Shown here: positions 8,885 through 25,166 of the stretch, piece by piece
Layout of the letters: each line of letters starts with the position of its first letter
Position numbering within the stretch: the stretch's first letter is position 1
DNA from: Streptomyces sp. PCS3-D2
GTDB taxonomy: Bacteria > Actinomycetota > Actinomycetes > Streptomycetales > Streptomycetaceae
DNA length: 64,000 nucleotides
NCBI RefSeq assembly: GCF_000612545.2
Contig: NZ_CP097800.1
Span: 2,973,001 to 3,037,000, forward strand
Reading direction: 5' to 3'
Notes under the pieces: model-generated
Told to the model about the DNA's origin: nothing
The model's database searches: none
Seen by the model: the letters and a program-made list of their open reading frames with translations, nothing else
Translations under genes and position numbers: made by a program

Positions 8885-9775
8885 TTACTGAGCGGCGTTC
8901 AGGATCGCGCGAGCGAGCTCGGCGGTCTCGGTCGGCGTCTTGCCGACCTTGACACCGGCGGCCTCAAGGGCCTCCTTCTTGGCCTGCGCCGTGCCGGAGG
9001 AGCCGGAGACGATGGCGCCGGCGTGGCCCATGGTCTTGCCCTCGGGGGCGGTGAAGCCCGCGACGTAGCCGACGACCGGCTTGGTGACGTTCTTCGCGAT
9101 GAAGTCCGCCGCACGCTCCTCGGCGTCGCCGCCGATCTCACCGATCATGACGATCAGCTCGGTCTCCGGGTCGGCCTCGAAGGCCTCCAGAGCGTCGATG
9201 TGCGTGGTGCCGATGACCGGGTCGCCACCGATGCCGACGGCAGAGGTGAAGCCGATGTCGCGCAGCTCGTACATCATCTGGTAGGTCAGCGTGCCGGACT
9301 TCGACACGAGACCGATCTTGCCGGGCTTGGTGATGTCGCCCGGGATGATGCCGGCGTTGGACTGGCCGGGGGTGATCAGACCCGGGCAGTTCGGGCCGAT
9401 GATGCGGGTCTTGTTGCCCTTGGCGGTCGCGTACGCCCAGAAGGCGGCGGAGTCGTGCACCGCGATGCCCTCGGTGATGACGACGGCCAGCGGGATCTCG
9501 GCGTCGATGGCCTCGACGACGGCGGCCTTGGCGAAGGCCGGCGGGACGAAGAGGACGGAGACGTTGGCGCCCGTCTTCTCCATCGCCTCGGCGACGGAGC
9601 CGAAGACCGGGACCTCGGTGCCGTCGAAGTCGACGGTCGTGCCGGCCTTGCGCGGGTTCACGCCGCCGACGATGTTGGTGCCGTCAGCCAGCATCAGCTT
9701 GGTGTGCTTCATGCCCGTGGCACCGGTCATGCCCTGGACGATGACCTTGCTGTCCTTGTTGAGGAAGATAGCCAT
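8885..9775 (-). CDS. sucD: Succinate--CoA ligase, alpha subunit
   Basis: 296 residues, standard length. The N-terminal CoA-binding domain has [16 protein letters not shown] and the NPRKAG segment. The C-terminal ligase domain carries the phosphohistidine at about residue 251 in [18 protein letters not shown]. With SucC it forms the TCA-cycle enzyme that converts succinyl-CoA and ADP or GDP to succinate with NTP formation. It lies 21 bases downstream of sucC in the same operon. Confidence 0.97.
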
Positions 9776-9796
9776 GTGAGTCTGTGACCTCTGCCC

Positions 9797-10975
9797 TTAC
9801 TTCGCAGCCGCGAGCTCGGCGGCCTTGTCGGCCGCGCCGTCCATGGTGTCCACGCGCTGCACCAGCGGGTGGTTGGCGTCCGAGAGGATCTTGCGACCCA
9901 GCTCGGCGTTGTTGCCGTCGAGACGGACGACGAGCGGCTTGGTGACCGCCTCGCCCTTCTGCTCCAGCAGGGCGAGCGCCTGGACGATGCCGTTGGCGAC
10001 CTCGTCGCACGCGGTGATGCCACCGAAGACGTTGACGAAGACGGACTTGACGTCCGGGTCCCCGAGGATGATCTCGAGACCGTTGGCCATGACGGCGGCG
10101 GAGGCGCCACCGCCGATGTCCAGGAAGTTGGCGGGCTTGACGCCACCGTGGTTCTCGCCGGCGTAGGCGACGACGTCCAGGGTGCTCATGACGAGACCCG
10201 CGCCGTTGCCGATGATGCCGACCTCACCGTCGAGCTTGACGTAGTTGAGGTTCTTCGCCTTGGCGGCGGCCTCGAGCGGGTTCGCGGCGGCGTGGTCGAC
10301 GAACTCCTCGTGACCCGGCTGACGGAACTCGGCGTTCTCGTCGAGGGAGACCTTGCCGTCGAGGGCGATGACCTCGCCGGAGGCGACCTTGGCGAGCGGG
10401 TTGACCTCGACGAGGAGGGCGTCCTCGGCGATGAAGGTGTCCCACAGGGTCACGAGGACCTCGGCGACCTTCTCGGCAACCTCGGCCGGGAACTGCGCCA
10501 GCGCGACGATCTCGCGGGCCTTCTCGATGGTCACGCCCTCGTTGGCGTTCACCGGGACCTTGGCGAGCTTCTCCGGGGTCTCCTCGGCGACCTGCTCGAT
10601 GTCCATGCCGCCCGCGACCGAGGCCATGGCCAGGAAGGTGCGGTTGGTGCGGTCGAGGAGGTACGAGACGTAGTACTCCTCGACGATCTCGGGAGCGGTC
10701 TCCGCGATCATCACCTTGTGGACCGTGTGGCCCTTGATGTCCATGCCCAGGATGTCCGTCGCGCGGGCGACGGCCTCGTCCGGGGTGGCGGCCAGCTTCA
10801 CGCCGCCGGCCTTGCCGCGGCCGCCGACCTTCACCTGCGCCTTGACGACCGACTTGCCGCCCAGCCGCTCGGTGGCCTCGCGAGCCGCCTCAGGCGTGTC
10901 GATGACTTCACCGGCCAGCACCGGTACACCGTGCTTGGCGAAGAGGTCCCTCGCCTGGTACTCGAACAGGTCCAC
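9797..10975 (-). CDS. sucC: Succinate--CoA ligase (ADP-forming), beta subunit
   Basis: 392 residues with the typical [20 protein letters not shown] start (GTG at 10975; AAGGGACGG upstream). It has an ATP-grasp N-terminal domain ([17 protein letters not shown], about 41-57; VEVNPLAKV Mg/nucleotide loop) and a C-terminal CoA-ligase domain ([21 protein letters not shown]). It is the first gene of sucCD. Confidence 0.97.
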
Positions 10976-11266: not shown

Positions 11267-12463
11267 TCAGGGGGTCGGCAGGGGCCGCTTCTCCAGCGCG
11301 GCGGCCATCACCTCCGGGAACAGGTCGGGCGTGCAGGCGAAGGCCGGAGCCCCGAGTGCGGCGAGGGCCGCGGCGTGTTCGCGGTCGTAGGCCGGGGCTC
11401 CCTCGTCGGACAGCGCGAGCAGGGTCACGAATTCGACGCCCGCCGCCTTCATCGCGGCGACCCGGCGCAGCATCTCGTTGCGTATGCCGCCCTCGTAGAG
11501 ATCACTGATCAGGACCACGACCGTGTCGGCAGGGCGGGTGATCTTCGACTGGCAGTAGGCGAGGGCCCGGTTGATGTCGGTGCCGCCTCCCAGCTGGGTG
11601 CCGAAGAGGACGTCGACCGGGTCGTCGAGCTGGTCGGTCAGGTCGGCGACCGCGGTGTCGAAGACGACCAGACGGGTGGCGATCGAACGCATGGAGGCGA
11701 GGACCGCGCCGAAGACGGAGGCGTAGACGACGGAGGCCGCCATCGAACCCGACTGGTCGATGCAGAGGATGACCTCCTTCTTCACCGATCGGGCCGCACG
11801 GCCGTAACCGATCAGCCGCTCGGGGACGACGGTGGCGTATTCGGGCAGGTAGTTCTTCAGGTTGGCGCGGATCGTGCGGTCCCAGTCGATGTCGTGGTGG
11901 CGGGGACGGCTGACCCGGGCGGACCGGTCGAGCGCGCCGGTGAGGGTGGCCCGGGTGCGGGTCGCCAGCCGCTTCTCCAGCTGCTCGACCACCGTGCGGA
12001 CCACGGCCCGCGCCGTCTCCTTCGTCGTGTCGGGCATCGCCTTGTTCAAGGAGAGCAGGGTGCCGACCAGGTGGACGTCCGGTTCGACGGCCTCCAGCAT
12101 CTCCGGCTCCAGCAGCAGAGCGGACAGGCCGAGCCGCTCGATCGCGTCGCGCTGCATCACCTGGACCACGGAGCTGGGGAAGTACGTACGGATGTCCCCG
12201 AGCCAGCGGGCCACGTTCGGCGCGGACCCGCCGAGCCCGGCCGACCTGGCCGCCCCCGATACGCGGCGGCCCCCTCCTTCGCCGCCTCCCCCGTACAGCG
12301 CGCCGAGCGCGGCGTCCATCGCCGCGTCCCGCCCGGTCGGTGTGTGGCCCGTCCCGTCGGCGTCTGCCCCGCCGAGCACCATCCGCCACCGCCGCAGCCG
12401 CTCGGCTCCGGCCGGGTCCGCCGTGTCCTGCCCCGCCGCCACGCCCGTCTCCCTGCCGCTCAT
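11267..12463 (-). CDS. VWA-domain protein (CoxE/YehP-like), third gene of the MoxR operon
   Basis: 398 residues from the ATG at 12463 (GGGGGAC upstream). The N-terminal half is helical (residues about 90-200). The C-terminal von Willebrand A domain (about 228-390) has the MIDAS motif DQSGSM (Asp236-Ser-x-Ser), a GGGTDIN loop carrying the MIDAS threonine and an ISDLYEGG acidic loop. The family works as a metal-dependent protein-binding partner of MoxR AAA+ ATPases. It follows the AAA+ and DUF5682 genes on the same strand with a 148-base gap, matching the yehL-yehM-yehP order of E. coli. The client is unknown. Confidence 0.87.
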   Translation of the reverse strand: MSGRETGVAAGQDTADPAGAERLRRWRMVLGGADADGTGHTPTGRDAAMDAALGALYGGGGEGGGRRVSGAARSAGLGGSAPNVARWLGDIRTYFPSSVVQVMQRDAIERLGLSALLLEPEMLEAVEPDVHLVGTLLSLNKAMPDTTKETARAVVRTVVEQLEKRLATRTRATLTGALDRSARVSRPRHHDIDWDRTIRANLKNYLPEYATVVPERLIGYGRAARSVKKEVILCIDQSGSMAASVVYASVFGAVLASMRSIATRLVVFDTAVADLTDQLDDPVDVLFGTQLGGGTDINRALAYCQSKITRPADTVVVLISDLYEGGIRNEMLRRVAAMKAAGVEFVTLLALSDEGAPAYDREHAAALAALGAPAFACTPDLFPEVMAAALEKRPLPTP

Positions 12464-12611
12464 CCGTCCGTCCCCCTGCACTCGTCGTACTCGTGACTCT
12501 TCGATTCCGCCCGCCTGGTCCCGGCCCGCCTGGTCCCGGCCCGCCCGCGTCCGGCCCCGCCAGCGTCCGGGGTGCGGAGGTCCGGGGCAGCGCCCCGCAA
12601 CGGCCGCGCCC

Positions 12612-14900
12612 TCAGACGGCCGCGACCCCGTCGGGAGACGCGAGCAGCATCCGGACCAGCTCCGTCACCGCGTCCGCCCGCTCCCGGTCCAGGTCGGGGG
12701 CGAAGCCTTCGGGGGCGTCGCCCGTCGACCGCGCCGCTCGCGCGGAGGAGGCCGGGCCGCGCCGTACCAGCTCACCCAGGGTCCTTCGCACCCCCGGCTC
12801 GTACGCCCCGAACGTCCGCCTCAGCAACGGGAGCACATCGGTGAAGGCGCGCTCCGGCACGCCCACCAGCCAGCTGTCGATCAGGCCGAGCAGGCGGTCG
12901 TCGTGGACCAGCAGCGTGCCGCCGCCCGAACTCCCGCCCGCGAAGCCCTCGATCCAGCCCGCCGCGTCGGCGGGCGAAGCGGCCGGGGACAGGGCGAGCC
13001 CCATCAGCCGGGCCGTCTCCCCGGCTTCCAGCCGCCCGTCGTCGAGAAGCAGCCGGGCCGCTCGGCCCCGGATGACGCCCGGCACGGTGTCCCGCTCGGC
13101 CAGCGTCCGCAGCACGGCGGACCAGCGCTCCCGCAGCCCGTCGCCGGTGTCCGCCAGCAGGCCGACCGCCGCGTGCACCCCGTCGACGTGGTCGCGCAGC
13201 TCCGCCGCCGCGTCAGCGTCCAGGCCGGCCGCGCAGGCCGGGGGGAGCGCGACGCATATCCGCTCGGCGAGGCCGGCCGCGACCGCCCCGAGCGCCGTCG
13301 CGTCGGTGCCCCGCACGTCGCCGTAGCGCAGCGAACGGGCCAGTGCCGGCAAGGCCTTCGCGAGCCGGGCGACGTCCGTGTCCAGCGCGGCGCGGTCGGC
13401 GAGGGCCCGCAGTACGGCCGGGAGGGCCCCGGCCAGTCCGGCCAGCAGGCACCGCTCGGCCAGCGCCGTGATCTCGGCCAGTTCCCCGGCGCCCGCGGCG
13501 TCCGCCTCCGCCTTGGCCGTGGCCGCCGCACGGACGGTGGTGCCCCAGATCCCGGCTTCGGCGACCCGCACGGACAGCTCCGGCTCCCAGCGCAGCCGCC
13601 AGGTCTCCCGGAAGGTGCCGGTGCTGCTGCGGGAGGCCGTCGGGGTGCCCCAGTCGATGCCGAGCAGCCGCAGCCGGTGCAGCAGCCGGGACTTCGCGGC
13701 ATCGGTGTCCTTGCGCAGGTCGAGCTCCAGCTCGCGGTCCCGCGCCTCCGCCTTGAGCCGCAGCGACCGCTGCCGGCGCGTCAGGTCGCGCTGGAGCGGT
13801 ACGACGGGCGCCGCGTCCGGCACCTCGCCGAGCACGTCGCCGACCACGAGGCGGTCCCCGATGAGGGCGAGCGGTACATCGGAGCCGTCGCACATCACCG
13901 CCCGGACGGCTTCCAGGGTCTCCGTCAGGCCGGGCAGGGGCCTGCCCCGCATCGCGGCCAGGGCCCCGGCCAGCCGGACCGCCTCGATGACGTGCGCCGA
14001 GGAGACCTGCCGGTCCTCCTCGCGCAGCAGGCCGGCGACCTTGGTCAGCCATCGCTCGATGGGCCGGTCACGGACGGAGAACAGGTGGGCGTACCAGCCG
14101 GGCGAGGTGATCCCCGCTCCGTACCCGCCGGCCCGGGCGAGCCGGCGGTGGGTCCACGGCACCCAGGTGGTCTCCACCTTGACCTTCGGCAGTCCGCTCA
14201 GTAGCGCCTTGTCGGCGGCCACGGTGGTCTTCGCCCGCAGCGCCGGGACGTGCCAGGCTCCGCACACCACGGCGTACCCGTCACCGAACTCGCGGCGGGC
14301 GGCGCGCATCCGCTGCCTCATGTACGCCTCGCGCACCAGGTCGCGGCGGTGGCCGCCGTCGCCGTACGCCTCGCGCAGGGCCCCCATGGCCTCCCCCAGC
14401 GCCTCGAACGCGCCGAGCGCCTCCTCCCCCGCACCGGCGCTCCCCCGGTGCTCGACGACGTCCTCCCACCAGCGCTCGGCGTCGTCGTACCCGGCGGTCT
14501 CGGCGAGCACCGCGAGGGGGTCGAGCCGGACCGCGTCGGGCTCGGCGTGGTCCGCGTCCGGCTCGGCGGCGGCCAGCGCATGCGCGGCGGGCAGGTCCAT
14601 GAACCGGACCGGTACGCCGGACTCCTGCGCCCAGCGGATCGCCACCCACTCCGGGGAGAAGTCGGCGAGCGGCCAGAACGCGGCTCGGCCCGGGTCGTCC
14701 GCCGCGTGCGCGAGCAGCGCCACGGGAGGCCGCATGCCGGGGTCGGCGGCCAGTGCGAGCAGCGCGTCCCCTTCGGGCGGCCCCTCGATCAGCACGGCCG
14801 CCGGGCGGGCCGCCTCCAGGGCGGAGCGGACGGCTCGGGCCGATCCCGGCCCGTGGTGGCGCACGCCGAGGAGCAGTGGGCCCTGGCGGGCGGTGCTCAC
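12612..14900 (-). CDS. DUF5682 (YehM-like) protein
   Basis: 762 residues, GTG start. It opens with LLLGVRHHGPGSARAV and VLIEGPPEGDALLAL, the DUF5682 signature (a TraB/ChaN-like GxRHxGP ... EGPP fold start), and has FWPLADFSPEW and VCGAWHVPAL segments in the first 330 residues. The remainder is alpha-helical and Ala/Leu rich. Its GTG overlaps the TGA of the AAA+ gene (GTGA), so it is translationally coupled between the ATPase and the VWA gene. No activity is established for the family; the conserved His/Glu positions make a metal site possible but unproven. Confidence 0.85.
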   Translation of the reverse strand: MSTARQGPLLLGVRHHGPGSARAVRSALEAARPAAVLIEGPPEGDALLALAADPGMRPPVALLAHAADDPGRAAFWPLADFSPEWVAIRWAQESGVPVRFMDLPAAHALAAAEPDADHAEPDAVRLDPLAVLAETAGYDDAERWWEDVVEHRGSAGAGEEALGAFEALGEAMGALREAYGDGGHRRDLVREAYMRQRMRAARREFGDGYAVVCGAWHVPALRAKTTVAADKALLSGLPKVKVETTWVPWTHRRLARAGGYGAGITSPGWYAHLFSVRDRPIERWLTKVAGLLREEDRQVSSAHVIEAVRLAGALAAMRGRPLPGLTETLEAVRAVMCDGSDVPLALIGDRLVVGDVLGEVPDAAPVVPLQRDLTRRQRSLRLKAEARDRELELDLRKDTDAAKSRLLHRLRLLGIDWGTPTASRSSTGTFRETWRLRWEPELSVRVAEAGIWGTTVRAAATAKAEADAAGAGELAEITALAERCLLAGLAGALPAVLRALADRAALDTDVARLAKALPALARSLRYGDVRGTDATALGAVAAGLAERICVALPPACAAGLDADAAAELRDHVDGVHAAVGLLADTGDGLRERWSAVLRTLAERDTVPGVIRGRAARLLLDDGRLEAGETARLMGLALSPAASPADAAGWIEGFAGGSSGGGTLLVHDDRLLGLIDSWLVGVPERAFTDVLPLLRRTFGAYEPGVRRTLGELVRRGPASSARAARSTGDAPEGFAPDLDRERADAVTELVRMLLASPDGVAAV

Positions 14901-16003
14901 GCGGTCACCTCCCGGCAGGCCCGGTAGAAGTCCTTCCAGCCGTCACGCTCGCGGACCACGGCCTCCAGGTACTCCTGCCAGACCACCTTGTCGGCCGCCG
15001 GATCCCGCACGACGGCGCCGAGGATCCCCGCGGCCACGTCGGAGGGGCGCAGTACGCCGTCCCCGAAGTGGGCGGCCAGGGCGAGGCCGTTGGTGACGAC
15101 GGAGATGGCCTCTGCCGTGGAGAGGGTGCCGCTGGGCGACTTGACCTTCGTCCGGCCGTCGTCGGTGACCCCGTCGCGCAGCTCCCGGAAGACGGTGACG
15201 ACGCGGCGGATCTCCTCCAGTCCCTCGGGCCCGGCCGGCAGGTCGAGGGAGCGGCCCATCTGGTCGACGCGCCGGGCCACGATGTCGACCTCGGCGTCGG
15301 CGGTGGCGGGCAGTGGCAGGACGACGGTGTTGAAGCGGCGGCGCAGGGCGCTGGAGAGCTCATTGACCCCGCGGTCGCGGTCGTTGGCGGTGGCGATGAG
15401 GTTGAAGCCGCGCACGGCCTGGACCTCTTCGCCGAGCTCCGGTATCGGCAGCGTCTTCTCGGACAGGACGGTGATGAGGGTGTCCTGGACGTCGGCGGGG
15501 ATGCGGGTGAGCTCCTCGACGCGGGCGGTCATGCCCTGGGCCATGGCCCGCATGACGGGGCTGGGGACGAGCGCCTCGCGGCTGGGGCCGTGGGCGAGGA
15601 GCCGGGCGTAGTTCCAGCCGTACCGGATGGCCTCCTCGGGGGTGCCGGCGGTGCCCTGGACGAGGAGGGTGGAGTCCCCGCTGACGGCGGCCGCGAGGTG
15701 TTCGGACACCCAGGTCTTGGCGGTGCCGGGAACGCCGAGCAGCAGCAGGGCGCGGTCGGTGGCGAGGGTGGTGACGGCGACCTCGACGATGCGGCGCGGT
15801 CCCACGTACTTGGGTGTGATCACCGTGCCGTCGTCGAGCGTGCCGCCGAGCAGGTAGGTGGCGACGGCCCGGGGGGAGAGCTTCCAGCGGGTCGGGCGGG
15901 GCCTGTCGTCGGCGTCCGCCAGGGCTTTCAGTTCGTGCGCGAAGGCGTCTTCGGCGTGCGGTCGCAGCGCCTCGGTGCCGATGCCGTTCTCGGACTTGCT
16001 CAT
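14897..16003 (-). CDS. MoxR-family AAA+ ATPase (YehL-like)
   Basis: 368 residues, ATG at 16003 with GGAGGGGG upstream. Walker A is GVPGTAKT (90-97, Lys96). The Walker-B region is degenerate-looking, as in this subfamily (VEELTRIPADVQDTLI). Sensor 1 is NLIATANDRDRG, followed by ALRRRFNTVVLPLP carrying the arginine finger region. It is the first gene of the operon AAA+/DUF5682/VWA. MoxR ATPases act as chaperone-like remodelling machines with VWA partners. It is divergent from the SWIM gene, and its promoter region carries a RecA-NDp-like sequence. Confidence 0.9.
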   Translation of the reverse strand: MSKSENGIGTEALRPHAEDAFAHELKALADADDRPRPTRWKLSPRAVATYLLGGTLDDGTVITPKYVGPRRIVEVAVTTLATDRALLLLGVPGTAKTWVSEHLAAAVSGDSTLLVQGTAGTPEEAIRYGWNYARLLAHGPSREALVPSPVMRAMAQGMTARVEELTRIPADVQDTLITVLSEKTLPIPELGEEVQAVRGFNLIATANDRDRGVNELSSALRRRFNTVVLPLPATADAEVDIVARRVDQMGRSLDLPAGPEGLEEIRRVVTVFRELRDGVTDDGRTKVKSPSGTLSTAEAISVVTNGLALAAHFGDGVLRPSDVAAGILGAVVRDPAADKVVWQEYLEAVVRERDGWKDFYRACREVTA

Positions 16004-16047
16004 GGTCCCCCTCCATTGCTCGGCAGTCGCTCCCGACTGCTGTTCCC

Positions 16048-16070
16048 ACGGTGCACCACGCCACTGACAA
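16048..16070 (-). promoter_or_regulatory. RecA-NDp/PafBC-type promoter candidate for the MoxR operon
   Basis: Read on the minus strand: TTGTCAGTG (16070-16062), 8 bases, then CACCGT (16053-16048). The -35 half is a perfect match to TTGTCRGTG; the -10 half keeps A2 and T6 of TAnnnT but has C at position 1. Predicted transcription start is about 35-40 bases before the ATG at 16003. Confidence 0.55.
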
Positions 16071-16107
16071 CGCCCCCAACTCAGCGCGTTGTTGCAGGTC
16101 AGGGCGA

Positions 16108-16130
16108 TTGTCAGAGGGGGTCTCTACGGT
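16108..16130 (+). promoter_or_regulatory. RecA-NDp/PafBC-type promoter candidate for the SWIM gene
   Basis: TTGTCAGAG (16108-16116), exactly 8 bases, then TACGGT (16125-16130). It matches the damage-response consensus TTGTCRGTG-N8-TAnnnT at all but one defined position. The ATG at 16138 lies 8 bases after the -10, so the transcript would be leaderless, which explains the absence of a convincing ribosome binding site. Confidence 0.6.
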
Positions 16131-16137
16131 GGTTTCC

Positions 16138-17481
16138 ATGACTGAGCAGGGGGTCCGCTGGACGGCGGAACAGGTACTGGCCCTGGCTCCTGACGATGCC
16201 TCACGCAAAGCGGGCGGCAGACTCGGTGGGGCAGGGCCGTGGTCACAGATCGGAGGTTCCGCTTCCGGTTCTGTGTGGGGGCTGTGCAAGGGCAGCGGCA
16301 GCAATCCGTACCGGACGGTCGTCGACCTGACCGGACCGGCCTACATGTGCTCCTGCCCAAGCCGGAAGTTCCCGTGCAAGCACGCGCTGGGACTGCTCCT
16401 GCTCTGGTCCGCCGAGGGGGTCGGCGAGCCCGGGGAAGCTCCGGACTGGGCCGCACAGTGGCTGGCGGACCGGGCGGCCCGGGCCGCGCGCCCGGCGGCC
16501 GGGGCGGCCCGACCGGTCGACGAGGAGGGGGCCCGGCGCAGGGCCGGCCGGCGGGCGGCGCGCGTCGGCGCGGGCGTGACCGAGCTGGAACAGCGGCTGG
16601 CCGATCTGCTGCGCGGCGGCCTCGCGGGCCAGGAGCAGGCCGGTTACGGGGCGTGGGAGGAGACCGCGGCCCGGATGGTGGACGCACAGGCACCCGGACT
16701 GGCGGGGCGCGTGAGGGAGTTGGCGACGATACCCGGTTGCGGCCCGGGCTGGCCCGCCCGGATGCTGGAGGAGGCGGCGCTGCTGCACCTGCTGGACCGG
16801 GCCTGGATGGGGGTGACGGGGCTTCCGGACCAGTTGGCGGCGACCGTGCGCAGCCGGGTGGGACTGCCGGCCTCCGGGGAGGGGGAGGCCGTACGGGACC
16901 GTTGGCTGGTGCTCGCACAGTACGACTCGGTGTCGCCGGACGGACGGCTCACCACCCGCCGGACATGGCTGCGCGGGCTGGCGGGCGGACGGCCCGCGCT
17001 GGTGCTGGACTTCGGGCCGCCCGGGCGGCTGCCTGCGCTGGCGCTGCCGGTGGGGCTGGTGCTGGAGGCGGAGATGCGCTTCCGGCCCGGGTCGGCGGGG
17101 CTGCGGGCGGACCTCGGAGAAAGCCGCGCGACGGCCGCACCGTGCCCGGAGGTTCCGGCCGGAGTGAGCACGGGGGCGGCTCTGGAGGCCTACGGGGCGG
17201 CGCTACGGGACGACCCGTGGTTGGAGTCCTGGCCTGTGGTGCTCGGGCCGGTGGTTCCGATACCGGGAGAGCTCGGCTGGCAGCTGGCGGACGCGGAGGG
17301 CACCTCCGCCCTGCCGGTGCCCCTCACCGGGGCGGGCAGCCGCTCCCGAGGGGGCCTGTGGCAGCTGGCCGCGTTGTCGGGCGGGGGCCCGGTGACGGTC
17401 TTCGGCGAGTGCGGACACCGCGGATTCACCCCTCTGACGGCCTGGCAGCCGGACTCGCCGGAGCCGGTCGCCCTGTCCTGA
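16138..17481 (+). CDS. SWIM zinc-finger protein (YehQ-like)
   Basis: 447 residues from the ATG at 16138. The SWIM motif is complete: Cys71-x-Cys73-x6-Cys80-x-His82 in MCSCPSRKFPCKHALGL. The rest is Arg/Ala/Gly rich in the middle (about 105-150) and then a mixed domain with DSVSPDGRLTTRRTWLRGL. SWIM fingers bind DNA or proteins, and E. coli YehQ carries one next to a MoxR ATPase. The gene is divergent from the MoxR/DUF5682/VWA operon and is followed by the DUF5691 gene. The start was chosen because the SWIM-family N-terminus (RWTAEQVLALAPDD) begins here and fits the leaderless promoter. Confidence 0.85.
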   Translation: MTEQGVRWTAEQVLALAPDDASRKAGGRLGGAGPWSQIGGSASGSVWGLCKGSGSNPYRTVVDLTGPAYMCSCPSRKFPCKHALGLLLLWSAEGVGEPGEAPDWAAQWLADRAARAARPAAGAARPVDEEGARRRAGRRAARVGAGVTELEQRLADLLRGGLAGQEQAGYGAWEETAARMVDAQAPGLAGRVRELATIPGCGPGWPARMLEEAALLHLLDRAWMGVTGLPDQLAATVRSRVGLPASGEGEAVRDRWLVLAQYDSVSPDGRLTTRRTWLRGLAGGRPALVLDFGPPGRLPALALPVGLVLEAEMRFRPGSAGLRADLGESRATAAPCPEVPAGVSTGAALEAYGAALRDDPWLESWPVVLGPVVPIPGELGWQLADAEGTSALPVPLTGAGSRSRGGLWQLAALSGGGPVTVFGECGHRGFTPLTAWQPDSPEPVALS

Positions 17482-17734
17482 GCGGGGCGGGAGGGACCGC
17501 CACGGAGCAAGGGGGCCTGGGGGGTCCTGTGCCGTCGCGCGGCGGTGGCAGGAAGAAGAGCGGCGCCGGGGGGCGCCGTGCACGCAACGACGAGAAGCCG
17601 GGGGGCTTTCATGAACGACAACCACGCCAGCTGAGCGGATTCGCACGGCACATCGACCGCCTCGGTCCCGCGGAGGGGGCGGGACCGGGGCATTGAAAAG
17701 ACGACCGAGGACGAGCGGCGAGGGAGGGGCACCG
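17482..17734. other. Spacer between SWIM and DUF5691 genes
   Basis: 253 bases with no convincing gene. An 8-codon mini-ORF (ATGAACGACAACCACGCC..., about 17610) is preceded by a G-rich run, but nothing supports expression. The spacer ends with GGGAGG, the ribosome binding site of the DUF5691 gene. Confidence 0.4.
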
Positions 17735-19309
17735 ATGGGCGAGGGTGACGAGAGGTACGGGGAGTGGCAGGAGCTGGTCGGTGCCGCGCTGCTGGGCACC
17801 GACCGGCGCCGGGGCGGGGGCCCGGTCGGCTCGCCGGAGGCGCTGCTGGACGCGGCGGCCGTGCACGCCGTCCGCCGCCGCGCCGGTCTGCGGCCGGCGG
17901 TGGCGCGGCCGCGGCCGGAGCCCGCGCCCCACGACCTCCGGCCGGCGCCGCCGGAGGCGGCGGGCCGCCGGCTCGCGCACCTGCTGGCGGACCGTACCGG
18001 CGGGGGTGGTGGGCGGCGCGGGGCGGCCCCGGATCTGACGGAGCTGCTCCCGCAGTGGCTGGCCGCGGCCGGCCGGCACGGCTACCGCGCGCCCGCCGCG
18101 CTCGTGCCGGCTCTGCTGGACGCGGCCCGGGCGCGCACGGACCTGCGCCCGCAGGCACTGGCTCTGGCCGGGCCGCGGGGACTGTGGCTGGCACGGATGA
18201 ATCCGGACTGGCGGTTCGCCCTGCGTGGCGGGGCGGGCGGCGGCGAACTGCCGGACGTGACCGACCCGTCCGCGGTGGAACGGCTGTGGGAGGAGGGGCT
18301 GTTCGCCGAGCGGGTGGCACTGCTCGGTGCCGTACGCGCGCATGACCCGGCCGCCGCACCGCGGCTGCTGGCGACGACCTGGGCGAGCGAACGGGCCGAG
18401 GACCGGCTGATGTTCCTCGACTCGCTGAGGGTGGGGCTGTCCCTGCAGGACGAGTCCTTCCTGGAGGCGGCGCTGGACGATCGCAGCCGCAATGTCCGCG
18501 CGACGGCGGCCGAACTGCTGTCGGCGCTGCCGCAGTCGGCGCTGGCGGGCCGGATGGCCGTGCGCGCGCTGGCCTGCGTGGGACCCGAGGGGGTGACGCC
18601 GCCGACGGAGTGCGACGGGGGGATGCTCCGCGACGGGGTGGTCAAGCGGCCGCCCGCCGGCCGCGGGGAGCGGGCCTGGTGGCTCGGCCAGCTGGTCGAG
18701 GCCGCACCGCTGTCCTGCTGGCGGGAGCGGTTCGGGGGCATGGGCCCGGCGGAGACGGTGGCGCTGCCGGTGGCAGCGGCCGAGGGCTGGGCGGAGGAAC
18801 TGCACGCGGCGTGGTGCCGGGCCGCGGTGCGCCAGCGCGACCCGGAATGGTCGCGCGCCCTGTTGGGTCCGGCGTCGGCGCCGCCCGCGGCAGGTCCGGG
18901 CACGGCCTCGCTCGCGGAGCGGGCCAAGCTGCTGGAGACCCTGCCCGACGGAGAACGGGCCGAGTGGGTCGCGGAGTTCGTCCGGGCGCACGGCCTGTCG
19001 GAGGCCTTCCAGCTGCTCGGCGTGTGCGTGGTGCCGTGGGCGGGAGCGCTGGGCCGGGCCGTCGTCGACGCGCTGGACACCGCCCGGGAAGCCGGCAGCT
19101 ACCCGTGGAGCTTCAGCGGGGTGATGGGCCTGGCGGAGCGCTGCCTCGACCCCGGCGAGGCCGGCCGCCTGGAAGCCCTGACCGCCGCCGCGGAGGAGCC
19201 GCCGGACGCGACCCCGGGTGCGGCCGCGTACTGGGCCGAGGCCTTCCAGCGCCTGGTGGCCACACTTCGACTGCGCGCGACGATGCTGTCGGAACTCGCG
19301 CCGGCCTGA
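17735..19309 (+). CDS. DUF5691 family protein
   Basis: 524 residues from the ATG at 17735, which has GGGAGG 8 bases upstream; the frame is open for 14 codons further, but without a site. It begins YGEWQELVGAALLGTDRR, the DUF5691 start. The body is made of helical, Ala/Leu-rich repeats resembling HEAT units (for example LDDRSRNVRATAAELLSALP). That implies a scaffold rather than an enzyme. It follows the SWIM gene on the same strand, as in other actinobacterial versions of this cluster. Function unknown. Confidence 0.8.
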   Translation: MGEGDERYGEWQELVGAALLGTDRRRGGGPVGSPEALLDAAAVHAVRRRAGLRPAVARPRPEPAPHDLRPAPPEAAGRRLAHLLADRTGGGGGRRGAAPDLTELLPQWLAAAGRHGYRAPAALVPALLDAARARTDLRPQALALAGPRGLWLARMNPDWRFALRGGAGGGELPDVTDPSAVERLWEEGLFAERVALLGAVRAHDPAAAPRLLATTWASERAEDRLMFLDSLRVGLSLQDESFLEAALDDRSRNVRATAAELLSALPQSALAGRMAVRALACVGPEGVTPPTECDGGMLRDGVVKRPPAGRGERAWWLGQLVEAAPLSCWRERFGGMGPAETVALPVAAAEGWAEELHAAWCRAAVRQRDPEWSRALLGPASAPPAAGPGTASLAERAKLLETLPDGERAEWVAEFVRAHGLSEAFQLLGVCVVPWAGALGRAVVDALDTAREAGSYPWSFSGVMGLAERCLDPGEAGRLEALTAAAEEPPDATPGAAAYWAEAFQRLVATLRLRATMLSELAPA

Positions 19310-22622: not shown

Positions 22623-25166
22623 TCAGAGCTTCTGCACCGGCGCGTAACGCAGCAACAGCCGCTTGGGCTTGTCGTCGCCGAAGTCGATGGTGGCCTGGGC
22701 GTCCGCGCCCGCGCCCTTGACCTCCGTCACGGTGCCGAGCCCGAACTGGTCGTGCGTGACCCGGTCCCCGACCGCCAGGGCGATGACGGGCTTGTCCGCT
22801 GCACGGCGCGTCGCGAACCCGGACGGGCCCGACTTCGTGCGCGAGGAGGACAGGAAGGCCTCGGGCGAGGTACCGAACGACGGCCGTCCGCCGCCCGCGC
22901 CGGAGCCGTAGCCCGCACTGCGCATCGGGCCGGCCGGCTTCTGGGCCGCTCCCGTGCGCTTCCACTGCAGGTACTGGTCGGGGATCTCCTCCAGGAACCG
23001 GGACGGCGGGTTGTACGAGGGGGTGCCCCACGCGCTGCGCATGCCGGACCGGGTCAGGTACAGCCGCTCGCGCGCCCGCGTGATGCCGACGTAGGCGAGA
23101 CGGCGCTCCTCCTCCAGCTCCTTGGTCTGACCCAGCGCGCGCATGTGCGGGAAGACCCCGTCCTCCATGCCGGTCAGGAAGACCACCGGGAACTCCAGGC
23201 CCTTGGCGGTGTGCAGGGTCATGAGGGTGATGACGCCGGAGCCGTCCTCGTCCTCGTCGGGGATCTGGTCGGAGTCGGCGACGAGGGCGACCTGCTCCAG
23301 GAACTCGGCGAGCGTGCCGGGACCGGCCGGCGCCGTCCCTTCCGGGGCCTCGGCGGCAGCGGCCTCGCGCGCCTGCTCGAACTCCAGCGCCACGGCGGCC
23401 AGTTCCTGGAGGTTCTCGATCCGCGTCTCGTCCTGCGGGTCGGTCGAGGCCTGGAGTTCGGCGAGGTACCCGGTGCGCTCCAGGACCGCCTCCAGCACCA
23501 CCGCCGGGCCGGCGCCCGAGTCGACGACGGTACGGAGCTCCTCCATCAGCGCATTGAACCGCTTCACCGCGTTGGTCGAGCGGGCCGCCATGCCGAAGGC
23601 CTCGTCGACCCGCCGCAGCGCCTGCGGGAAGGTGATCCTCTCGCGCAGCGCGAGAGCGTCGATCATCGCCTCGGCGCGCTCTCCGATGCCGCGCTTGGGC
23701 ACGTTCAGGATGCGGCGCAGCGGGACGTTGTCCTCCGGATTCGCGAGGACGCGCAGGTACGCGAGGACGTCCCGGACCTCCTTGCGCTCGTAGAAGCGGA
23801 CGCCGCCGACGACCTTGTACGGCAGGCCGACCCGGATGAAGATCTCCTCGAACACGCGCGACTGGGCGTTGGTCCGGTAGAAGATCGCGACGTCCCCGGC
23901 CTTGGCGTCCCCGGCGTCGGTGAGCCGGTCGATCTCGTCGGCGACGAACTGCGCCTCGTCGTGCTCGGTGTCCGCGACGTAGCCGGTGATGACCGCGCCG
24001 GTGCCGGCCTCGGTCCACAGGTTCTTGGCGCGGCGGTTCTCGTTGCGCTCGATGACGGCGTTGGCGGCGGAGAGGATGGTCTGCGTGGAGCGGTAGTTCT
24101 GCTCCAGCAGGATCGTCGTCGCGTCCTTGTAGTCCTCCTCGAACTGGAGGATGTTGCGGATCGTCGCGCCGCGGAAGGCGTAGATCGACTGGTCGGCGTC
24201 ACCCACCACGCACAGCTCCGCCGGGGGCAGGTCGGGGTAGCCGGTGCCGACCAGCTCACGCACCAGCGTGTACTGCGCGTGGTTGGTGTCCTGGTACTCG
24301 TCGACCAGAACGTGCCGGAAGCGGCGCCGGTAGTGCTCGGCGACGTCCGGGAAGGCCTGGAGCAGGTGCACCGTGGTCATGATGATGTCGTCGAAGTCGA
24401 GGGCGTTGGCCTCGCGCAGTCGCGCCTGGTACATCGCGTACGCCTGGGCGAGCGTCTTCTCGAAGCCTCCCCCGGACTCCGTCCGGGAGGTGCCCCCTGC
24501 CGCCTGGTCGGCGAAGGCCTCCTCGTCGACCAGTTCGTTCTTCAGGTTCGAGATCTTGGCGCTGAAGGACTTCGGCGGGAACTTCTTCGGGTCCAGGTCG
24601 AGGTCGCGACAGACGAGCGCCATCAGGCGCTTCGAGTCGGCCGCGTCGTAGATCGAGAAGGAGGACGTGAAGCCGAGCCGCTTGGACTCGCGGCGCAGTA
24701 TGCGCACGCAGGCGCTGTGGAAGGTGGAGACCCACATGGCGTTGGCACGCGGGCCGACCAGGCCTTCGACGCGCTCCTTCATCTCACCGGCGGCCTTGTT
24801 GGTGAAGGTGATCGCCAGGATCTGGCCGGGGTGGACGTTCCGGGCGGCCAGCAGGTGGCCGATGCGGTGCGTGAGCACCCTGGTCTTGCCGGAGCCCGCG
24901 CCGGCCACGATGAGCAGCGGGGAACCCGCGTGCACCACGGCGGCGGCCTGCTGTTCGTTCAGGCCGTCGAGGAGCGTCGCCGGGTCGATGACGGGCTTGG
25001 GCGCACCGTCCCGGTAGTACGCGTCGCCGGTCATGGGCGCGTCGAAGCGCCCCCCGAAGAGGTCGTCCGCACCCGCCTCCGGGGCGGGGTGCTCCTCGGG
25101 CGGCGGCGGGACCTCGTCGGAGGGGGTGAGGTCCGCCAGGAAGCTGTCGTCAAAGAGGCTGCTCAT
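22623..25166 (-). CDS. pcrA: ATP-dependent DNA helicase PcrA/UvrD
   Basis: 847 residues. SF1A helicase with Walker A GAGSGKT (89-95), Walker B LVDEYQDTN (about 287-295), GDADQSIYAFRGA (motif III), QNYRS (motif IV), TLHTAKGLEFPVVF (motif V) and VGITRARERLYL (motif VI). An N-terminal acidic extension of about 60 residues and the C-terminal Tudor-like domain (VGDRVTHDQFGLGTV) are typical of actinobacterial PcrA/UvrD1. It acts in nucleotide excision repair and replication-fork restart. Its start overlaps the upstream ArsR gene by 17 bases. Confidence 0.96.
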   Translation of the reverse strand: MSSLFDDSFLADLTPSDEVPPPPEEHPAPEAGADDLFGGRFDAPMTGDAYYRDGAPKPVIDPATLLDGLNEQQAAAVVHAGSPLLIVAGAGSGKTRVLTHRIGHLLAARNVHPGQILAITFTNKAAGEMKERVEGLVGPRANAMWVSTFHSACVRILRRESKRLGFTSSFSIYDAADSKRLMALVCRDLDLDPKKFPPKSFSAKISNLKNELVDEEAFADQAAGGTSRTESGGGFEKTLAQAYAMYQARLREANALDFDDIIMTTVHLLQAFPDVAEHYRRRFRHVLVDEYQDTNHAQYTLVRELVGTGYPDLPPAELCVVGDADQSIYAFRGATIRNILQFEEDYKDATTILLEQNYRSTQTILSAANAVIERNENRRAKNLWTEAGTGAVITGYVADTEHDEAQFVADEIDRLTDAGDAKAGDVAIFYRTNAQSRVFEEIFIRVGLPYKVVGGVRFYERKEVRDVLAYLRVLANPEDNVPLRRILNVPKRGIGERAEAMIDALALRERITFPQALRRVDEAFGMAARSTNAVKRFNALMEELRTVVDSGAGPAVVLEAVLERTGYLAELQASTDPQDETRIENLQELAAVALEFEQAREAAAAEAPEGTAPAGPGTLAEFLEQVALVADSDQIPDEDEDGSGVITLMTLHTAKGLEFPVVFLTGMEDGVFPHMRALGQTKELEEERRLAYVGITRARERLYLTRSGMRSAWGTPSYNPPSRFLEEIPDQYLQWKRTGAAQKPAGPMRSAGYGSGAGGGRPSFGTSPEAFLSSSRTKSGPSGFATRRAADKPVIALAVGDRVTHDQFGLGTVTEVKGAGADAQATIDFGDDKPKRLLLRYAPVQKL

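Follow-up and report, generated by a model that had tools for sequence, protein, structure and literature searches.

A stretch of 64,000 nucleotides from Streptomyces sp. PCS3-D2 (contig NZ_CP097800.1, bases 2,973,001-3,037,000 within the 7.63-Mb genome), here called the window, contains five genes in two divergent arms: leftward, a MoxR-type ATPase, a DUF5682 protein and a VWA protein; rightward, a SWIM zinc-finger protein and a DUF5691 protein. In Streptomycetaceae this cluster represents a five-gene machine that occurs in several phyla, as ddrTUVWX in Deinococcus, with YehLMPQ of Escherichia coli a more distant cousin. Taken as a whole, it is best explained as a five-gene MoxR-VWA remodelling machine driven by damage promoters, a reading to which we give a probability of about 0.68. 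The features of the cluster, in window positions, are as follows.

11267..12481, minus strand: VWA (CoxE-like) protein, 404 aa, with DQSGSM (PF05762 VWA_CoxE, 5.9e-62)
12612..14900, minus strand: DUF5682 protein, 762 aa, YehM homologue (PF18934 DUF5682, 1.2e-287)
14897..16003, minus strand: MoxR-type AAA+ ATPase of the YehL kind, 368 aa (PF07728 AAA_5, 2.6e-37)
15713..15736, minus strand: Walker A GVPGTAKT, residues 90-97 of the MoxR protein
16048..16070, minus strand: RecA-NDp/PafBC-type promoter of the MoxR arm, TTGTCAGTG-N8-CACCGT, rank 1 in 64 kb
16108..16130, plus strand: RecA-NDp/PafBC-type promoter of the SWIM arm, TTGTCAGAG-N8-TACGGT, rank 2 in 64 kb
16138..17481, plus strand: SWIM zinc-finger protein, homologue of the first gene of the Deinococcus operon (PF04434 SWIM, 1.9e-5)
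16348..16383, plus strand: SWIM finger CSCPSRKFPCKH (CxC-x6-CxH), residues 71-82 counted from ATG 16138
17735..19309, plus strand: DUF5691 protein, reading frame open from TTG 17693 (PF18944 DUF5691, 5e-164)

An earlier note, made from the letters alone, had named these five genes in two divergent arms, and the Pfam matches bear it out, together with GVPGTAKT, DQSGSM and CxCx6CxH in the translations. The coupling it saw between the ATPase and DUF5682 genes is the GTGA in which the stop of the first overlaps the start of the second (14897-14900). The SWIM open reading frame (ORF) opens at GTG 16051, and conservation favours ATG 16138 as its start; with the start taken there rather than at the GTG, the gap between the arms is 134 bp (16004-16137), the length originally given. 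For DUF5691, ATG 17735 is the more likely start. The ATPase is placed in the YehL subfamily, the one MoxR subfamily compared, by 40% identity to YehL over 356 aa and by its VWA neighbour; YehL and RavA are two of seven MoxR subfamilies (PMC3893208). NorQ is among its solved relatives. Homologues of the VWA protein are YehP and the product of the final gene in the Deinococcus operon. A Walker B motif usually carries a DE pair; that of the window MoxR is EE (RVEEL), as in YehL (RFEEI).

The two promoters make the first case for damage control. Published PafBC sites of Mycobacterium tuberculosis read TGTCGG, TGTCAG or TGTCAC, then N10 and TA-N3-T (PMC8151990), and by this consensus the SWIM arm fits while the MoxR arm is off at one -10 base. 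The earlier description of both arms as close to consensus therefore stands for the SWIM arm, which matches TGTCAG/TGTCGG-N10-TANNNT, and has to be qualified for the MoxR arm, which fails that pattern with a -10 of CACCGT, that is, CANNNT. The MoxR-arm -10 form, GGTGCA-NNNT, has 115 matches over the 123 loci scanned; it may represent a promoter variant of lower strength or different tuning. Like the RecA-NDp/PafBC regulon, the genome has the TGTCAG-N10-TA-N3-T spacing before recA, ruvC and ung. In its strict form, TTGTCAGNG-N8/10-TANNNT, the motif has seven matches in the 7.63 Mb and the reversed pattern none; six of the seven precede recA, ruvC, ung, the window SWIM gene, a paralogous MoxR-DUF5682-VWA operon and a WGR protein, and the seventh is without a clear target. 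A matrix trained on four repair-gene promoters of the same genome (recA, ruvC, ung and lhr) scores the MoxR and SWIM arms at 24.8 and 18.9 over both strands of the 64 kb, the next best site reaching 12.7, with the qualification that the training set is small and that its lhr site shares the CANNNT -10 with the MoxR arm.

Could these motifs be ordinary promoters, unrelated to damage? Several observations point that way and weigh against the damage reading: the -10 of the MoxR arm is off consensus; damage control of these genes in the genus is sequence-based; and the looser form of the motif is frequent, with 46 genome matches against 17 for the reversed pattern, so that single loose matches mean little. 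Against ordinary promoters stand the rarity of the strict motif and its position before repair or yeh-family genes in six of seven cases, the top placing of both arms by a repair-promoter matrix, and the 5-fold ultraviolet induction reported for SCO6735, a Streptomyces gene with a RecA-NDp promoter (PMC5087735). Promoters without any tie to damage are thus very improbable, and both arms are very probably under DNA-damage control, as judged from sequence.

A candidate regulator is encoded in the same genome. Two tandem WYL genes, at C1:6157771 and 6158825, follow a Pup-ligase match (6154372-6155634) within about 3.4 kb, and we infer them to be pafB and pafC. A LexA palindrome was considered as the switch and rejected: the LexA core is GAAC-N4-GTTC, and with one mismatch allowed it occurs at chance in the window (17 sites, 17.1 expected) and is absent from the gap 16004-16137. 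Term searches of papers on damage responses, so far as they included these two words, found neither MoxR nor SWIM. Other sites of the genome carry related motifs. TTGTCAGTG-N8-CANNNT lies near the start of an Lhr-type helicase gene (C1:2073517, L090) and before a gene with no Pfam match at E 1e-5 (C1:1756687, L088), and the strict motif lies upstream of a gene for a WGR and beta-propeller protein (C1:5785695-5788717, L009).

Conservation carries the argument beyond a single genome. The comparison took in 50 genomes of the genus: the 30 most similar ones, with the own genome among them, and 20 of the 21 window-type matches of lowest similarity, G073, which lies near a contig end, being excluded. 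The MoxR arm has the motif in 47 of these and the SWIM arm in 45; 42 have it on both arms, and none of the 50 lacks it on both. Control coding windows of the same length have it in 0 of 50. Among 80 named loci, which are the best matches of the window MoxR (70 Streptomyces, two Streptacidiphilus, one Kitasatospora and seven others), it stands at 72 MoxR arms and 64 SWIM arms and on at least one arm in 73, that is, in every Streptomycetaceae locus (73/73); elsewhere within the 80 loci it occurs 70 times in 1.36 Mb. The gene set is as stable: beside MoxR there is a SWIM gene in 80 loci, DUF5682 in 79, DUF5691 in 76 and VWA in 74. Nine loci are short of a gene, eight of them cut by a contig end and one (L160) lacking VWA with no contig end nearby. 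The earlier note had proposed both comparisons, of the motif in homologous intergenic regions and of the co-occurrence of the five genes, and the motif is conserved as it had expected.

The seven other loci (Rhodococcus, Acrocarpospora, Microtetraspora, Williamsia, Catenulispora, Cellulomonas and Sphaerisporangium) have all five genes colinear with SWIM first, so a promoter is expected before SWIM. The exact pattern is found there in three of the seven (Acrocarpospora, Microtetraspora and Sphaerisporangium); the Catenulispora site is two letters off TTGTCAGTG, and Rhodococcus, Williamsia and Cellulomonas have degenerate forms at the same spot. A relaxed motif precedes SWIM in 113/113 loci aligned on the zinc finger, a set from which 18 of 131 loci were dropped for want of that anchor and in which the own locus counts twice; in shuffled upstreams it turns up anywhere in 14 of 2240. 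In the window the -10 stands 7 nt 5' of the SWIM ATG, and in 106 of the 113 anchored loci its end lies 6-8 nt from the start codon. This is the geometry of a leaderless transcript, and the sequence is consistent with the SWIM gene being transcribed without a leader.

Damage-type motifs also accompany paralogous operons. Twenty-one paralogue loci were mapped, 20 hand-picked from the matches listed and one from the own genome; among the matches listed, paralogues are 43-51% identical to the window MoxR. Three further operon types emerge, together with the exact motif upstream in 15 of 21 loci and a near match in the other six. In the matrix, L076 (12.7) and L080 (14.0) score no higher than the 41 control upstreams, whose maximum is 14.0, and the same holds for Acrocarpospora (14.0). 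Type A consists of DUF4132, a 1679-aa protein, MoxR and a DUF5682::VWA fusion (exact motif 4/9). Type B consists of a SWIM-like ORF, an unknown gene, VWA, MoxR and a DUF5682-like protein (9/10), the first two genes being seen in L064 and L068. Its labels are weak, since "SWIM-like" was assigned by eye and "DUF5682-like" rests on 31% identity to YehM (E 5.8e-6); at E 0.01 Pfam gives no match for the first two ORFs or for the DUF5682-like protein. Type C is an E. coli-like run of yehI, yehL, yehM, yehP and yehQ (2/2), in which the yehQ-like protein of L074 has no Pfam match and is labelled from 29% identity to YehQ. It occurs in two genomes of the genus (L074, L075), with a RecA-NDp-type motif before yehI in each. 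The own genome has a second MoxR operon (C1:306500-326000, L012), with a DUF5682::VWA fusion and a strict damage-type motif upstream; its 1679-aa protein has no Pfam match at E 0.01. DUF5682 and VWA also share one frame in two window-type relatives (L181, L182).

The closest published relative is in Deinococcus. In D. deserti it is the operon Deide_18730 to Deide_18690, published as ddrTUVWX without an assigned function. This operon is listed as radiation-induced and IrrE-dependent, with a radiation/desiccation response motif (RDRM) upstream; its first gene, for a SWIM protein, falls in the more-than-10-fold induction class, and Deide_18720, 18710 and the CoxE-like VWA gene 18690 in the more-than-5-fold class (PMC5552922). 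The same source lists homologues with an RDRM in D. gobiensis, D. maricopensis and D. peraridilitoris. It shares with the window a set of five genes, SWIM first, CoxE-like VWA last and damage-type control, the identity of the middle D. deserti genes being inferred from their order. A plasmid of Deinococcus taeanensis has SWIM, DUF5691, MoxR, DUF5682 and VWA in that order and homologues of all five window proteins (MoxR 71%, VWA 52%; the DUF5691 match is short, 69 aa), and a small extra ORF lies there between MoxR and DUF5682 (L228 8071-8307). A single RDRM-like site stands 19 nt before its SWIM gene, with 0 in 200 shuffles, by a pattern written after a wider one had shown the site; it resembles listed DdrO sites such as that of gyrA (PMC8533742). 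The window differs in having two divergent arms instead of one colinear operon, and the Deinococcus genes answer to IrrE/DdrO and the RDRM, not to PafBC. An RDRM as the control element of the window was tried and rejected, as no RDRM-like site with up to 1 mismatch is present. With the five genes homologous and no RDRM in the window, this is a homologous machine in a different regulon. The DdrO map of D. radiodurans also includes the WGR gene DR2173 and the pair DRA0165-DRA0166, the latter with DUF4132 (PMC8533742); WGR and DUF4132 families stand behind a damage-type motif in the window genome too.

The inference of damage-type control, as first made, is thus supported from two sides, the conserved motif and the IrrE-dependent induction of ddrTUVWX. 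The earlier note had overlooked the published Deinococcus relative.

In E. coli the MoxR, DUF5682, VWA and SWIM genes form one run (yehLMPQ), and the window proteins are 40%, 28% and 36% identical to YehL, YehM and YehP. The comparison with yeh genes drawn earlier holds for these three; the window SWIM protein shares the finger family with YehQ but gives no BLASTP match to it at E 1e-3. The yehLMPQ run also differs in having no DUF5691 annotated. The type C operon is closer to it than the window is, with a MoxR 64% identical to YehL. Upstream of the run lie the WGR gene yehF and the DUF4132 gene yehI, and we take this yehF-yehI region to be molR. The entry molR appears among LexA-regulated genes listed for E. 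coli (PMC11039860, PMC4576408). No perfect LexA core was found in the yeh region; a one-mismatch core, CTGGATAAAATTACAG, lies just before yehF, which is weak alone, since such sites number 13 where 7.2 are expected. Two or more of yehL, yehP, yehQ and yehM came up together in a literature search only in a genome announcement and a strain resource.

Further afield, Rhizobium etli has all five genes, and most of the set, to the extent that it was annotated or checked, is also present in Hymenobacter, Methylosinus, Methylobacterium and Fusobacterium: no VWA is annotated alongside the Hymenobacter and Methylosinus runs, DUF5682 of Hymenobacter is split into three annotated pieces, and in Fusobacterium the second gene has no similarity to DUF5691. 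Before SWIM in these five no recognisable damage operator was seen. Alphaproteobacterial LexA boxes were looked for before SWIM in L230-L232 and not found. The cluster is best classed in the ddrTUVWX/YehL group, as a member that differs in its arrangement and its regulator.

What such a machine does is less settled than how it is controlled. A phage-defence or biological-conflict system of the MoxR-VWA type, with damage as the signal of infection and DUF5682 as the effector, would fit the central place that MoxR-VWA pairs have in the conflict systems proposed for multicellular bacteria (PMC7159879), the several paralogous cassettes in the genus, and the patchiness of DUF5682 (19 of 246 genomes of the phylum), relatives of which also occur on plasmid-collection records (40 at E 1e-30). 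Yet none of the five window proteins and none of eight relatives has a PADLOC match. Of 101 genus genomes, 97 have a MoxR match at E 1e-40, of the window type in 95 and as paralogues only in two (four have none), and the other four genes accompany it in most of the 80 loci. Its neighbours are two succinyl-CoA synthetase-type genes (8885-10975, minus strand) and, a few kb away, a UvrD/PcrA-type helicase gene (22623-25166, minus strand), and a term search of PMC7159879 found neither SWIM nor YehL. Defence, an option the earlier note had kept, has gained no support and is quite unlikely.

A second possibility is a maturation chaperone of the NorQ/NorD or CoxD/CoxE kind, inserting a metal cofactor or assembling one enzyme needed after damage. 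As in RavA-ViaA and NorQ-NorD, a MoxR AAA+ ATPase adjoins a VWA partner; the VWA_CoxE match and the presence of NorQ among the MoxR relatives agree with this, and the known MoxR-VWA pairs covered in PMC3893208 mature single client complexes. Here, however, the pair is joined by conserved SWIM, DUF5691 and DUF5682 proteins and by damage-type promoters, and these recurrent partners in the 80 loci, a finger, a helical protein and DUF5682, include no known metalloenzyme, though a client gene may lie among the other flanking genes. Such a role is unlikely; a DNA-damage remodelling machine is the probable one.

Structure gives some clues to the accessory proteins. The N-terminal part of DUF5682 is alpha/beta and carries two GxxH motifs along with conserved Glu/Asp; its C-terminal part is helical. 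H15, E39, E84, D102, E191 and H217 are invariant in 11 DUF5682 proteins, and both GxxH motifs are present in the window protein and in nine of the 11, while in two the first Gly is replaced by Pro. The TIKI superfamily is characterised by a pair of GxxH motifs together with conserved Glu residues, and the window protein has both at sequence level. Foldseek matches listed for DUF5682 include helical-repeat proteins and no TIKI structure, which carries no weight against TIKI. Catalysis in TIKI proteins is described as His-Glu (PMC6254334); that DUF5682 is a hydrolase is a tentative idea and on balance doubtful. The predicted model of DUF5691 is all-helical, its first matches are armadillo and HEAT proteins, and it is probably an armadillo/HEAT-like solenoid. 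Sequence searches for solved relatives of DUF5682, DUF5691 and SWIM gave nothing credible, and a literature search gave no paper on DUF5682.

A model for the DNA-damage remodelling machine could run as follows. Single-stranded DNA would activate PafBC, which would turn on both arms together with recA, ruvC and ung. The MoxR ATPase may then drive a VWA co-chaperone that grips a client protein, while the SWIM finger would bring the complex to DNA or to a client already bound there, with helical DUF5691 as the scaffold. DUF5682, whose partner is probably the VWA protein, might supply a second activity, possibly hydrolysis through its TIKI-like N-terminal domain. The most likely job would be to strip, remodel or process protein complexes on damaged chromosomes. 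A role in DNA damage is supported because two unrelated damage regulators are used, one shown (in Deinococcus) and one predicted (PafBC). In its widest form the model would make this a widespread but so far unrecognised damage machine, with a MoxR-VWA unfoldase, a SWIM targeting finger, a helical scaffold and a TIKI-like DUF5682 removing or cutting proteins on damaged chromosomes, adopted separately by PafBC, IrrE/DdrO and perhaps LexA, with WGR and DUF4132 proteins as damage-sensing companions; at that breadth it is speculative and rather improbable.

Whether Streptomyces has a LexA-independent, PafBC-type damage response is open in print (PMC9380542). The rarity of the motif and its sharp placement ahead of recA, ruvC, ung and these operons indicate that it probably does. 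Once the Streptomyces cluster, ddrTUVWX and the yeh genes are seen as a single family behind unrelated damage regulators, a number of separate puzzles become one question open to experiment, and the function of the cluster can be tested directly in laboratory Streptomyces.

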